This document shows, piece after piece, positions 18,723 through 26,101 of a stretch of DNA of 64,000 nt (positions are counted from its first letter, which is position 1; each line of letters starts with the position of its first letter). The notes under the pieces were generated by a model, which saw only the letters and a list, made by a program, of their open reading frames with translations, searched no databases and was not told where the DNA came from. This DNA comes from Bacteroidota bacterium. GTDB lineage: Bacteria; Bacteroidota; Bacteroidia; Bacteroidales; VadinHA17. The translations under genes were made by a program, and so were the position numbers. Location: the NCBI GenBank assembly GCA_011050615.1, contig DRFJ01000051.1:1-64000 (forward strand), in the 5' to 3' direction.

Positions 18723-18978
18723 CCTGTGCAGTTAAAATTCATTTTGTGTTCCTCCATATTTTAGTAATTTTTATTTGTTATCAGTTTGTAAGATGTAACC
18801 ATAATAATTTTCCAGTGATCGAAAGTCCCTTTTAAAACTAAATATTAACATATGTAAATAACATACACATTTTTTCAGGATTTCCAAATTTTTCTTTCAA
18901 GAAGGGATTCAGATTCGTGATTTCAATCTGATTTTTTTACATTTACTGGTGTTTCAATACAAGTTAATATTCAGTAAG

Positions 18979-20184
18979 ATGAGCATTAAAAGAATAATAA
19001 CAGTCCCTGTGTATATCTTCTGCCTGCTTCCATTGATTTTCGGGAATATTGAGGTTATTGGGAAAGATAATCTTTCAGGTCCATCGCGACAAGATAAATC
19101 CACGCCATGGGAAGAAATGAATTTCAGGGTAATGAAAATCAATGACAGACTTGTTCGATTCATTGTCAGTTCCGAGCTTGATCCTGTCGATCCTTTTGGA
19201 GGAACAGGGAACTACGGAGGACATAAGCTCTTCGATGATGATTCTGCCACCGCCTGGGTTGAAGGGCTTGGTGGTCATGGTGAAGGCGAGTATATAATTG
19301 CAGGTCTTGGTAAAAATTTACCTCTCACTTTAAATATTCAAAACGGCTACCAGAAATCGGAAAAGCTGTATAAAATGAATAGCCGTCCCCGTGTACTCAG
19401 GCTAAGCGTTTATGCAGGTATCTTCCTGGAAGGTGACCAGTCAGAAATAGCCTGCCGTTACAGGATAAAAGAACTTCCCCTTGAAAAATACATTGAACTG
19501 GATGACAGAATGGGTAATCAGTCTTTTGATATAACTTTCCCCGGAAATTACACTAATTACAGGGATTCCCTTGTAACATTATTTAAATCGGACTTTGCAG
19601 AGGAACTGGAACAGAGAAGGAATATGTGTCCCACATGCGATCTGGCTCCTCGTTTAAATTTCTTTATGAAACTTGAAATAAAAAGTGTCTATCCAGGATC
19701 AGAATGGGACGACACCTGCATTTCAGGAATTTCATTTGATTATCCTCAAGGGAGGCATGAAGTGATCAGCAACAGTGACATTATATTGAAGGTATACGAG
19801 GACAAAAACCCGGCATCCGGGAAGATCTATGTGGACACGGACAGGGAAACAGGTATTGTTCTTATTGACAGGACAGAGCTTTCTGAATATGCAAACATGG
19901 AAGATAACGAAAATATAAGTGTGGTCCTTATGGCTGTCAGCACCGATAAAGAATGGGCCCAGGTAGATTTTATTATATCCGGAGAAGGTCAGGGCAGAGC
20001 CGAAGAATATTCGGCACTTTACAATATAAGAATGCTCCGCAGGGTTGATGAGTCCGTACTTGATATAAAATACGGAATGTTTGGTTTTGTTGAGGATAAT
20101 GGGAAGATATGGCTTGATACTATAGATGGGTTCGTTGATCTTGACAGGGTGAGGGAAGAGATGAGAAATGAGAAACCATTTTAA
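18979..20184 (+). CDS. Secreted protein with NADase-type glycan-binding-like domain
   Basis: The product is 401 aa from Met at 18979; an in-frame ATG at 18949 would put ten residues before the signal peptide (KRIITVPVYIFCLLPLIFG). Residues ~60-200 contain 'GGHKLFDDDSATAWVEG', 'GEGEYIIAGL' and 'NGYQKSEKLYKMNSRPRVLR', a pattern of discoidin-like NADase-type glycan-binding domains. The C-terminal half is beta-rich and unrecognised. No catalytic motif is visible. It stands alone between the coiled-coil genes (divergent) and a convergent phosphatase whose stop overlaps its own. A carbohydrate- or surface-binding role is likely but unproven. Confidence 0.65.
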   Translation: MSIKRIITVPVYIFCLLPLIFGNIEVIGKDNLSGPSRQDKSTPWEEMNFRVMKINDRLVRFIVSSELDPVDPFGGTGNYGGHKLFDDDSATAWVEGLGGHGEGEYIIAGLGKNLPLTLNIQNGYQKSEKLYKMNSRPRVLRLSVYAGIFLEGDQSEIACRYRIKELPLEKYIELDDRMGNQSFDITFPGNYTNYRDSLVTLFKSDFAEELEQRRNMCPTCDLAPRLNFFMKLEIKSVYPGSEWDDTCISGISFDYPQGRHEVISNSDIILKVYEDKNPASGKIYVDTDRETGIVLIDRTELSEYANMEDNENISVVLMAVSTDKEWAQVDFIISGEGQGRAEEYSALYNIRMLRRVDESVLDIKYGMFGFVEDNGKIWLDTIDGFVDLDRVREEMRNEKPF

Positions 20185-23000: not shown

Positions 23001-25289
23001 TTATTTAAACTTCTGAAGTATATTGATAAGGAGCATCAGGTTCTCTTTTGATTCTTCATCAAGGTTTGACCTGGTAATTTTTCCATTATTCACCTCCCCG
23101 AGGAATTTGCTCAGGAGGAAATTCCTGGGAAGTTCATTTAAATTTATATGCTCAGAGTTGGATACAGTAATTCCCTCCCTTGTTTTCAGGATAAGGTTCT
23201 TAAAATCCAGGGTTGAAAGAAGATCTTCCGCATTCATGAATTCCTCGGGCATAATAATAATATTTTCATTTTCCCCGGGTTTATTTGTAAACACCATCTT
23301 CTCGAGTTGCCTGGCAATCTCTATCTCCTTATCGTTATGGAAGAGGAGGACTGCAAACTTCATTCCCCAGCCCATTAATATGTTGCACATCAGCGGTATG
23401 GAGGAAGAATTCGTGGATGGGATGAAGTGTATTCTTCCTTTATAACCTGTTAGTTTAACAGCAGCATTCATCATATAGAAGGTGCCCACATTATTAACGA
23501 TGATATTATGTTTATCGACTGAGAATTCCTGGTCACCAACAGGATTACCCATGATACTCTGCAAGGGTGACAGGGTATCAGGTGAAGCATCACCAAGTCG
23601 TGCAGCATCCAGTAATACGGTTGTTGACCTGTGATCTGCCAGGTCATTCCTTTGTACAGCCAGGATCCTGTGTAATTTATTTATATCGACAAGGTGAGGT
23701 GAATGTGTTGTATATATTATCTGTATATTTTCCTTTATGTCTTCAAAGACTTTCAGCACATCTTCCTGGGCACGTGCATGAAGGCTTACCCCCGGCTCAT
23801 CCACCAGGAGGATAAGGTGTTTATTAGCCCTCCGGGATGCAGCCATCAGTTCAAGGTAGAAGGAAAGGAACCATCTTACTCCCCTGCTGCGCTGCTTGGG
23901 ATACAGTCTCTCACCTTCATCCTTTACCCAGAATTCAAGGTAAGGTTTTCCGGCCTTCGCACCATGGTTGGTACTGTAATGGTCGAGTTCAAAATTGATT
24001 CTTATCTTATTGTGCCTGCCAACATACTGTTGCCAGAAATCCTGGAAATCAAGTGTGATTTTTGTATTAAGATTCTCAATTTTCTGTTTGAGTATCCTGG
24101 ATGAGGGCTGCTGGAAAAAGGAATAATCAAGCTCTGCCAGGGTAAGAAAATTCCTAGCTGCCTTATAACCTTCAATATTCTGGTTATCAGAAACCAGGTC
24201 TTCCATGTCTATCCGGTTCGGGAGCAGGCTTCCAAAGTCTTCAAATATTTCAAAATGAGGACAGTCAGCGGACAATATCTCACCCAGCTCCCTTGGAATG
24301 TATTCAAGTTTCCTTTCGTCCTCAATTTTTTGCAGTTTAATTCTGGCCTTTTCTTCCGGAAGACCGTCAAAAATGAAACCACATAATAAGGTCTTCATGT
24401 CCAGCTCCTTTTCAAGTCTTTCCTTTTTGCTTACCGTTGATTTAAATTCTTTCAGCACTTTCTCCCATTCACCACGGGAAAGATATTCAAGTGAGGGGCC
24501 TGACAGCAAGGTCATAGTCTGGTGCCTTTCTTCCAGTCTCATTGAAATATCATCAAGCTTTTTATTAACAGACTCAAGCTCGCTCTCAGTCTTCAGGCGA
24601 TCTTCAACAACACTGACCATGCTGCTGTTGTCTTCCAGGAAAGAATTTACCTTATCCAACTCACCGCGTGTTTCTTCGAAAGACTCGCTAAGCTTTTCCA
24701 GGGTATTGTCAGCATCGTCTTTCAGGTCAGTCTTCTTTCTCCTGAAAAATCGCAATCCGCCTTCTTTTGCCGGATGTTCATCAAGTTTTATCTGTATCGA
24801 ATTCAGTTTGTCAGTCAGTTTTTGTTTTTTCTTCCTTGCCTCATCCAGTTCAGAATAAAATGCCTTAATTTTTTCACCTGTCTCAATCAATTCCTTTTTC
24901 CTGCCATTTTCCACTTCCTTAATATAATCGAGTAATTCCCCTCCTATATCCATCTGGGATTCAAGGTCAGCCTTCCATGAACGTATAAGGGTTATATTGT
25001 TTAATGAATTTACAAGTTTATCAAATTCATCATTTACAGGGTGCAATTTACTTTTAAGGTAAGCTTCAGGTACTTCAAAGCTACAGGTAACTTTAGGCAG
25101 TGAAAGATCACTCCTGAGCACATCCTCAGAGATCACCCCTGATGAAAATACTTCCAGTCCTTCAAGTATTGAAGTTTTCCCTGACTCGTTCTGGCCTATC
25201 AGGCAGGTTATGTTATCGGGTGATACGGTTTGCATGCCGGTATCGACAATTGATCTGAAATTTTCTATTCGGAAAGCTTTTAATCTCAT
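23001..25289 (-). CDS. OLD-family-like AAA ATPase with degenerate Toprim region
   Basis: The product is 762 aa. Walker A GQNESGKT is at 32-39. A long coiled coil occupies ~90-300. Near residue 500 are Walker B 'HLILLVDEPGVSLHARA' and H-loop 'TTHSPHLVD'. From 593 the C-terminal part aligns by eye with OLD Toprim domains, including 'AEDLLSTLDFKNLIL', but the key acidic residues are changed: the V-E-G position is V-N599-N, and the D-x-D position is H651-N-D653. Nuclease activity is therefore doubtful. The gene starts 5 bp after the SpoIIE phosphatase stop, so the two form an operon. A role in DNA maintenance, defence or signalling is open. Confidence 0.8.
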   Translation of the reverse strand: MRLKAFRIENFRSIVDTGMQTVSPDNITCLIGQNESGKTSILEGLEVFSSGVISEDVLRSDLSLPKVTCSFEVPEAYLKSKLHPVNDEFDKLVNSLNNITLIRSWKADLESQMDIGGELLDYIKEVENGRKKELIETGEKIKAFYSELDEARKKKQKLTDKLNSIQIKLDEHPAKEGGLRFFRRKKTDLKDDADNTLEKLSESFEETRGELDKVNSFLEDNSSMVSVVEDRLKTESELESVNKKLDDISMRLEERHQTMTLLSGPSLEYLSRGEWEKVLKEFKSTVSKKERLEKELDMKTLLCGFIFDGLPEEKARIKLQKIEDERKLEYIPRELGEILSADCPHFEIFEDFGSLLPNRIDMEDLVSDNQNIEGYKAARNFLTLAELDYSFFQQPSSRILKQKIENLNTKITLDFQDFWQQYVGRHNKIRINFELDHYSTNHGAKAGKPYLEFWVKDEGERLYPKQRSRGVRWFLSFYLELMAASRRANKHLILLVDEPGVSLHARAQEDVLKVFEDIKENIQIIYTTHSPHLVDINKLHRILAVQRNDLADHRSTTVLLDAARLGDASPDTLSPLQSIMGNPVGDQEFSVDKHNIIVNNVGTFYMMNAAVKLTGYKGRIHFIPSTNSSSIPLMCNILMGWGMKFAVLLFHNDKEIEIARQLEKMVFTNKPGENENIIIMPEEFMNAEDLLSTLDFKNLILKTREGITVSNSEHINLNELPRNFLLSKFLGEVNNGKITRSNLDEESKENLMLLINILQKFK

Positions 25290-25294
25290 ATTCT

Positions 25295-26101
25295 TTAAAT
25301 TTCAAAACCCATTACGAGTACATCATCTACTTGGATGGCACTACCTTTCCATTCATTAAATATTTTTTCTATATGCTCTTTTTGCCTGTCCATGCCCCAG
25401 TCTGCTACATGTGAAATCAATTGCCTGAAGTTTCTTATTTTGAACTTTTTATTTGTCTTTTCACTGAACTGGTCAGGATAACCATCGGAAAACATATAAA
25501 AACGGTCTCCTTCCTTTACTTCTATCCTGTGGTTAGTAAACGACACTTCTTCGAGGGGAGCCACACCTATTGGCATTTTATTTGGCTTAATTTCTTTCAA
25601 TTGTCCGTCGCTTACCATTATAAGAGGCCTGTTTGCCCCGGCAAACTGAATTACCGACCCGTTAGGTTCATAAACACAGAGAGCTATATCAATACTGTCT
25701 TTCTGTTCATATTCCTTACCCCTCTGGTCAAGGGCATCCATTACTTTCTCCCGCATCCTGTTAAGTATCCTGTTGGCACGGGGAACAGACCTTGACTGCA
25801 ATATCTCATTCAGGAAACTTATACCAAGGATTGACAATAAGGCACCTGGCACTCCATGACCAGTACAATCACCTGCAGCAATTATGGTATAGCCCCCATT
25901 CTGGTAAGCATAGTAAAAATCGCCGCTGACATAATCCTTCGGAAGATAAAAAATAAAATGATCTTTAAGTATGCCCGACAGGAATGATGTGTCAGGCATC
26001 AGGGAACGTTGAATCATGCTTGCATACCGCAGGCTCGACAAGTGTTCATCCATTGCCTGGGCAAAAAGAACAGAATCGAAATCCCTTATTCCTTTATTCA
26101 T
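25295..26101 (-). CDS. SpoIIE-family (PP2C-type) protein phosphatase
   Basis: The product is 268 aa. The catalytic domain is complete: 'YVSGDFYYAY', 'AAGDCTGHGVPGALLS', 'SDGYPDQFSE' and a final 'IQVDDVLVMGF' supply the metal-binding acidic residues. There is no sensor or receiver domain; only a short helical N-terminus (~25 residues) precedes it. Such enzymes dephosphorylate Ser/Thr on anti-anti-sigma (STAS) partners, but no kinase or STAS gene is adjacent. Its only operon partner is the OLD-like ATPase 5 bp downstream. TATATTTG-like -7 elements lie at 26130-26148 on the minus strand. Confidence 0.88.
   Translation of the reverse strand: MNKGIRDFDSVLFAQAMDEHLSSLRYASMIQRSLMPDTSFLSGILKDHFIFYLPKDYVSGDFYYAYQNGGYTIIAAGDCTGHGVPGALLSILGISFLNEILQSRSVPRANRILNRMREKVMDALDQRGKEYEQKDSIDIALCVYEPNGSVIQFAGANRPLIMVSDGQLKEIKPNKMPIGVAPLEEVSFTNHRIEVKEGDRFYMFSDGYPDQFSEKTNKKFKIRNFRQLISHVADWGMDRQKEHIEKIFNEWKGSAIQVDDVLVMGFEI

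Follow-up and report, generated by a model that had tools for sequence, protein, structure and literature searches.

The window analysed here is a 64,000-nucleotide stretch of the genome of a Bacteroidota bacterium (contig DRFJ01000051.1, positions 1–64,000). Its minus strand carries adjacent genes for a SpoIIE/SiaA-type PP2C (PPM) phosphatase of 268 amino acids (25295..26101) and an OLD-like ABC ATPase of 762 amino acids with a degenerate Toprim domain (23001..25289). The stop codon of the phosphatase gene and the start codon of the ATPase gene are separated by a 5-bp spacer (25290..25294), and both reading frames lie where an earlier note, made from the sequence alone, had placed them. The neighboring genes encode an ABC-F protein, a GWxTD protein, a SpoU methylase, an M81 peptidase, an MlaD-like protein, and other ordinary chromosomal products. 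Positions 18949–20184 of the window encode a predicted 411-residue protein with an F5/8 type C domain assigned to the NAD glycohydrolase translocation family, a name that is unusual in this setting.

The phosphatase matches the Pfam SpoIIE family (E 1.4e-20), and its nearest solved structure is the PP2C domain of SiaA (6k4e, E 4.7e-27). The catalytic domain spans residues 69–264 (25310..25897) and includes D78, D138, D206, D259, and D260, with D61 located just upstream. These acids are invariant in 62–64 of the 64 paired phosphatases. The protein has both the domain and the metal-binding acids of a SpoIIE/SiaA-type enzyme and, as had been claimed for it, retains every acid of the PP2C metal site and lacks a sensor domain. 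The best NCBIfam model is SiaA, with a score far below the full-length cut-off; the match is limited to the C-terminal part of the model, and therefore the N-terminal region of SiaA is missing from the window phosphatase. The alignment to SiaA starts at residue 18, at the beginning of an N-terminal linker helix (residues 18–40, DEHLSSLRYASMIQRSLMPDTSF, 25982..26050) that is kept in the alignment of paired phosphatases. By analogy with the linker of RsbU (PMC12143880), this helix may be a docking site for an activator. In two genomes from family f8, a 1128–1138-residue SpoIIE protein is encoded directly upstream of the sensorless phosphatase, which results in a run of three genes (L084:10840-14226 and L086:4449-7865). 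Judged by eye, the long N-terminal regions of these proteins contain propeller-like repeats and a membrane helix.

The ATPase has the N-terminal ABC ATPase domain of OLD proteins (Pfam AAA_15, E 2.1e-27). Its top PADLOC models are AriA and Old, with AriA scoring best, and GajA also matches. The Walker A motif GQNESGKT (25173..25196), a segment containing the signature-like RSRG, the Walker B motif LLVDEPG, and the H-loop TTHSPHLVD (23685..23891), and the E-D-L-L-S layout are all present as previously described. K38 is kept in every homologue that covers the position, and D497, E498, and H529 are invariant in all 64 aligned sequences with residues at these sites. According to the secondary structure of the predicted model, residues 117–328 (24306..24941) form a helical coiled-coil insertion in the ABC head, which is poorly conserved, with a mean major-residue frequency of 0.41. 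The full-length model (pLDDT 71.5, pTM 0.55) resembles the ABC heads of SMC/Rad50 and of OLD/GajA/PtuA. Because SMC/Rad50 heads dominated the Foldseek output for the full-length model, the C-terminal 223 residues were folded separately to examine the Toprim domain (pLDDT 72.6, pTM 0.71). The C-terminal region of BpOLD was the best match of this model in VIA-align (Z 9.6, rmsd 3.6, 152 residues), followed by XccOLD, retron Eco2, GajA (Z 7.7), and TsOLD (Z 6.9); the leading matches were OLD C-terminal regions with Z 9.0–9.6 over 152–159 residues. Foldseek alone gave weak matches, the best being TsOLD (E 3.4e-3). The comparison with GajA and OLD that the earlier note had proposed thus points to a predicted OLD Toprim-plus-helical fold, with a Toprim domain at residues 591–675 (23265..23519; Z 9.6 to 6nk8) and a helical domain at residues 676–762 (23004..23264), as in Class 2 OLD proteins; the alignment of the model to 6nk8/6njv reaches the last residue.

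The catalytic metals of OLD nucleases are bound by E400, E404, D455, D457, T506, and E508 in BpOLD (PMC6755086) and by E377, D381, D431, D433, S478, and E480 in TsOLD (PMC7049728). The window ATPase has N599, T603, F650, N652, N686, and E688 at these positions, and five of the six ligands are lost. At the metal-A site, the Toprim glutamate and the two DxD aspartates are replaced by N599, F650, and N652. At the metal-B site (BpOLD E404, T506, and E508), which is occupied by T603, N686, and E688, one of three ligands is kept. Alignment of relatives places the codon of N599 (23493..23495) at the glutamate site (BpOLD E400/TsOLD E377) and that of T603 (23481..23483) at the metal-B acid site (BpOLD E404/TsOLD D381). 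The sole remaining ligand, E688 (23226..23228), corresponds to BpOLD E508 and is a glutamate in 63 of 64 paired proteins. The replacement of V-E-G by V-N-N had been described correctly; the reported change of D-x-D to H-N-D was off by one in register. The register was set both from paired relatives that keep L-D-D-D-x-E-G and from an independent HMMER profile alignment to Thermus OLD (6p74), which rule out H-N-D and align the motif with F650-H651-N652 (23334..23342). Therefore, both aspartates have been lost.

The replacements are shared by close relatives. Among 36 relatives with at least 51% identity, position 599 is asparagine in 36 and position 650 phenylalanine or tyrosine in 36, position 652 is asparagine in 34, position 603 is always serine or threonine, and E688 is kept throughout. 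Of the N and H residues whose conservation the earlier note had proposed to check, N599 is conserved and H651 is not. No homologue at this level of identity has intact Toprim acids. The sequences support the description of the ATPase as a non-nuclease OLD-like protein. The 28 other paired proteins with a residue at position 599 have glutamate in 24 cases, lysine in three (family f8), and glutamine in one. Six more distant paired homologues, 40–50% identical to the window protein, retain the glutamate, both DxD aspartates, and the equivalent of E508. The loss of the acids is therefore graded, and these six proteins might still be able to nick DNA. No member of the paired family has an acid at position 603, but each of the seven unpaired OLD-like relatives has one there, along with glutamate at position 599; the whole set of E, D, DxD, and E is kept in the unpaired relatives L104 and L105. 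Since family f8 is joined with the window clade in the ATPase tree (SH-aLRT 99), the loss of ligands looks stepwise, and we infer that the metal-B acid was lost first and metal A subsequently, on the branch leading to f8 and the window clade. The dead domain keeps invariant residues of its own, including N595, Y605, P624, G640, W641, E688, D689, and R704, which argues that it is not simply decaying and still has a role. The invariance of the PP2C and ATPase residues together with the loss of the Toprim ligands indicates that selection has kept the ATPase and the phosphatase and dropped the nuclease.

Other Bacteroidales families encode a second OLD-like ATPase of about 635 residues (L097:4124-6022, L098:1-1673, L100:7325-9253, and L101:6426-8324) with a Toprim glutamate that is kept and a degenerate DxD. 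In L097, L100, and L101, the genes that follow it encode a membrane protein with a zinc ribbon (MxCPxC...) and a short protein with a coiled coil, so that this too is a conserved OLD-like operon with unusual partners.

The phosphatase and ATPase genes form a two-gene unit that is conserved far more often than chance would allow. In the family of the window genome (f1), 74 of 117 genomes have an ATPase match, a few of which are weak matches to generic ATPases. Of the 69 ATPase genes of this family with the 5′ end on the contig, 68 have an open phosphatase gene directly upstream on the same strand, with a median spacer of 15 bp (range 3–266). In the remaining case (genome G048, L026:3789-4870), the phosphatase gene lies at the same place and is interrupted by a frameshift, which may reflect a true pseudogene or a mistake in the assembly. 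In the wider order Bacteroidales, 21 of 247 genomes match, and full-length ATPase homologues occur in families f1, f8, f15, f39, f43, and f44; a search of 395 genomes across the phylum yielded no further full-length homologue. In the five other Bacteroidales families, all 13 ATPase genes whose 5′ side could be read are paired. The conservation in other genomes that the earlier note had proposed to look for is therefore found in 69 of 69 cases in f1, one of them frameshifted, and in 13 of 13 elsewhere. Lineages differ in the genes that flank the pair, which persists in many dissimilar neighborhoods across the six families; general synteny alone therefore does not account for it.

The two genes are inherited together. 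In a phosphatase tree of 30 paired and 23 unpaired SpoIIE domains, drawn largely from the same family and genomes, a single branch (SH-aLRT 92) separates all paired domains from the unpaired ones. The paired or unpaired state changes once on this tree, compared with a mean of 17.6 changes in shuffles. Where it is supported, the phosphatase tree has the same groupings as that of the ATPases, for example, the window clade with f8. In pair-bearing genomes of the genus-level group g13, the gene order is ABC-F, RlmD-like methyltransferase, phosphatase, and ATPase. Genomes G076 and G078 of this group have the ABC-F and methyltransferase genes at the same site and lack both genes of the pair. The joint presence or absence at a syntenic site indicates that the two genes have been gained or lost together.

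The earlier note had stated that the phosphatase has no kinase or STAS partner, which is true of the locus but not of the genome. A SiaB–SiaC gene pair with the conserved N-T-S-S site is located elsewhere in the window genome (G000:C3:113121-113949), unlinked to the phosphatase and ATPase genes, and a SiaB-type kinase and its SiaC target are therefore available in trans. In Pseudomonas, SiaB phosphorylates SiaC at T68 and SiaA dephosphorylates it (PMC7647112). SiaC is present in all 24 pair-bearing genomes examined, which a model with SiaC as the substrate requires; however, this is weak evidence, since SiaC is also found in seven genomes of this set that lack the pair, and SiaB likewise occurs in pair-less genomes. 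A SiaC-family gene is located near tsaD in several Bacteroidales families independently of the pair (G000:C9:27904-30380, G010:C1:1192072-1194861, and G130:C56:5589-7017). The SiaC gene that adjoins the pair in f8 was considered as proof of the substrate and rejected as independent evidence, because SiaC is also close to TsaD at pair-less loci and the TsaD–SiaC linkage is older.

SpoIIE/SiaA-like PP2C phosphatases are switched by regulatory helices and dimerization (PMC5468089), and a partner protein can operate the switch in trans, as RsbT does when it binds the linker of RsbU and thereby activates the enzyme (PMC12143880). The AriA ATPase of PARIS switches on an effector that is a separate protein, and other modules combine OLD-ABC sensors with HNH, REase, or PIN nucleases (PMC12839542). 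Given these precedents for the trans switching of PP2C enzymes and for OLD-ABC sensors that serve separate effectors, the ATPase is most likely an in-trans sensor or gate of the phosphatase. The pair may accordingly be a two-protein signaling switch with the ATPase as its sensor and the phosphatase as its effector, a reading to which we give slightly less than an even chance. The complex, the direction of control, the signal, and the substrate are inferred. The nuclease-dead ATPase would sense a state of the cell, probably a nucleotide level or DNA ends or structure, as do the heads of OLD, Rad50, and RecF. In one nucleotide state, it would dock on the sensorless phosphatase through its coiled coil or its dead Toprim/helical domain and turn the enzyme on or off, much like RsbT acting in trans on the linker of RsbU. 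The phosphatase would provide the enzymatic output by dephosphorylating a target that is likely to be SiaC-like or STAS-like and to receive its phosphate from a SiaB-type kinase, the gene of which is located elsewhere in the genome.

The reverse direction of control, which the earlier note had suggested, is unlikely. The phosphatase would then dephosphorylate the ATPase or a close partner, and thereby gate the ATPase as the working part in DNA maintenance or the cell cycle. The obligate pairing and the invariant ATPase motifs fit this arrangement equally well, the pair is chromosomal and stable, and the archaeal Cran1 is an OLD ATPase with a non-defense cellular role (PMC12796447). However, no dedicated kinase adjoins the pair in any of the neighborhoods read, no phosphosite is known, and the SpoIIE/SiaA-type phosphatases characterized to date act on STAS/SiaC-like proteins (PMC11418112, PMC7647112). 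Control of the phosphatase by the ATPase is a better fit to the invariant PP2C site and the eroding Toprim site.

It is improbable that the pair is an anti-phage module in which infection is sensed by the OLD-like ATPase and answered by the phosphatase as the effector, for example, with growth arrest through a partner switch. Such a role is suggested by the matches of the ATPase to the AriA, Old, and GajA models of PADLOC, by the frequency with which OLD-ABC sensors with swapped effectors occur in defense (PMC12839542), and by the patchy presence of the pair in f1, where matches, some few of them weak and generic, occur in 42 of 65 good genomes. However, the phosphatase has no match among the PADLOC models, and the pair occupies a fixed chromosomal site beside the ABC-F gene across four genera, surrounded by housekeeping genes and outside any mobile or defense-island context. 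Furthermore, the ATPase tree follows taxonomy in most places, and 72,556 plasmids and 50,697 phages contain distant partial matches only and no full-length copy. The suggestion of a defense module is therefore not favored.

A nuclease that is still active, with nicking supported by other residues or by a single metal site formed by E688 and its neighbors and regulated by the phosphatase, is very unlikely. E688 and D689 are nearly invariant among the paired ATPases, six relatives retain E and DxD, and BpOLD tolerates single ligand mutations, with some nicking left even in triple mutants (PMC6755086). By contrast, each tested single ligand mutation of P2 OLD abolished lethality in vivo (PMC7049728), and the window clade has been stripped of both metal sites (N599, T603, F650, N652, and N686). 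That the two genes are independent and merely share a stable operon is highly improbable, since the pair persists in different neighborhoods of six families, its phosphatases form a dedicated clade, and the two genes are jointly absent from a syntenic site, even though the wider neighborhood is also stable within the window lineage.

A switch composed of an ATPase sensor and a phosphatase effector could, tentatively, represent a new OLD-derived class in which the Toprim nuclease has been traded for a phosphatase. The ABC sensor of DNA or nucleotide state would feed into a serine/threonine phosphorylation switch, and the dead domain would serve as a docking or sensing part. The known OLD proteins cut nucleic acid directly or have a nuclease partner that does so; in the present case, the family seems to have exchanged DNA cutting for phosphate removal. 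In Bacteroidales, a mostly uncultivated order, the constant adjacency of a phosphatase gene and the gene of a relative of the phage-defense OLD nucleases that has lost its DNA-cutting site suggests the conversion of a nuclease into the control subunit of a signaling enzyme. A present-day gradient leads from unpaired relatives with all the acids, through paired proteins without one metal-B acid, to a clade without nearly all of them. If the two proteins form a complex, it would link an SMC/OLD-type ATPase directly to a partner-switch signaling pathway and supply a sensor in trans to one of the sensorless PP2C enzymes that are numerous in Bacteroidota and few of which have known inputs. The literature searched, which included few subscription papers, contained no description of a PP2C phosphatase partnered with an ATPase of the OLD or ABC type.

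The OLD nucleases of Classes 1–3 (Ts/P2 OLD, GajA of Gabija, and retron OLD) share with the window ATPase the ABC head with inserted helices and the Toprim domain, and those of Class 2 also the C-terminal helical domain. The window ATPase differs from them in that five of the six catalytic metal ligands are replaced, and therefore the pair is not counted among the OLD nucleases. In addition, it is larger, has a long coiled coil, is encoded at a vertically kept locus, and has a PP2C partner instead of a helicase or reverse transcriptase. The UvrD-like helicase gene of Gabija is not next to the ATPase gene in the window, where the neighbors are the PP2C gene and those of the M81 peptidase and ABC-F protein, and the partner is a PP2C phosphatase at all loci. 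PARIS (Class 4, AriA ATPase and AriB Toprim) and the combinations of OLD-ABC with HNH, REase, or PIN nucleases are similar to the pair in being two-gene operons of an OLD-type ABC sensor and a separate effector enzyme. Such an arrangement is already known; the new aspects are the phosphatase as a class of effector and the dead Toprim domain that is still fused to the ATPase. Unlike these systems, the pair lies outside a defense island, and in place of a separate AriB Toprim gene it has that of a SpoIIE PP2C. Cran1 from Sulfolobales (Class 5 OLD) is also a chromosomal OLD ATPase encoded in a conserved two-gene operon for which no defense role has been found (PMC12796447); however, it keeps all nuclease residues, is a nickase, and has a membrane protein as its partner. 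The SiaABC and RsbU–RsbT systems resemble the pair in the SiaA-like phosphatase with an intact PP2C site, the SiaB and SiaC homologues in the genome, and the precedent of trans-activation by RsbT. SiaA and RsbU each have a regulatory or sensor region of their own at the N terminus, whereas the window phosphatase lacks such a region and has the OLD-like ATPase as its constant partner.
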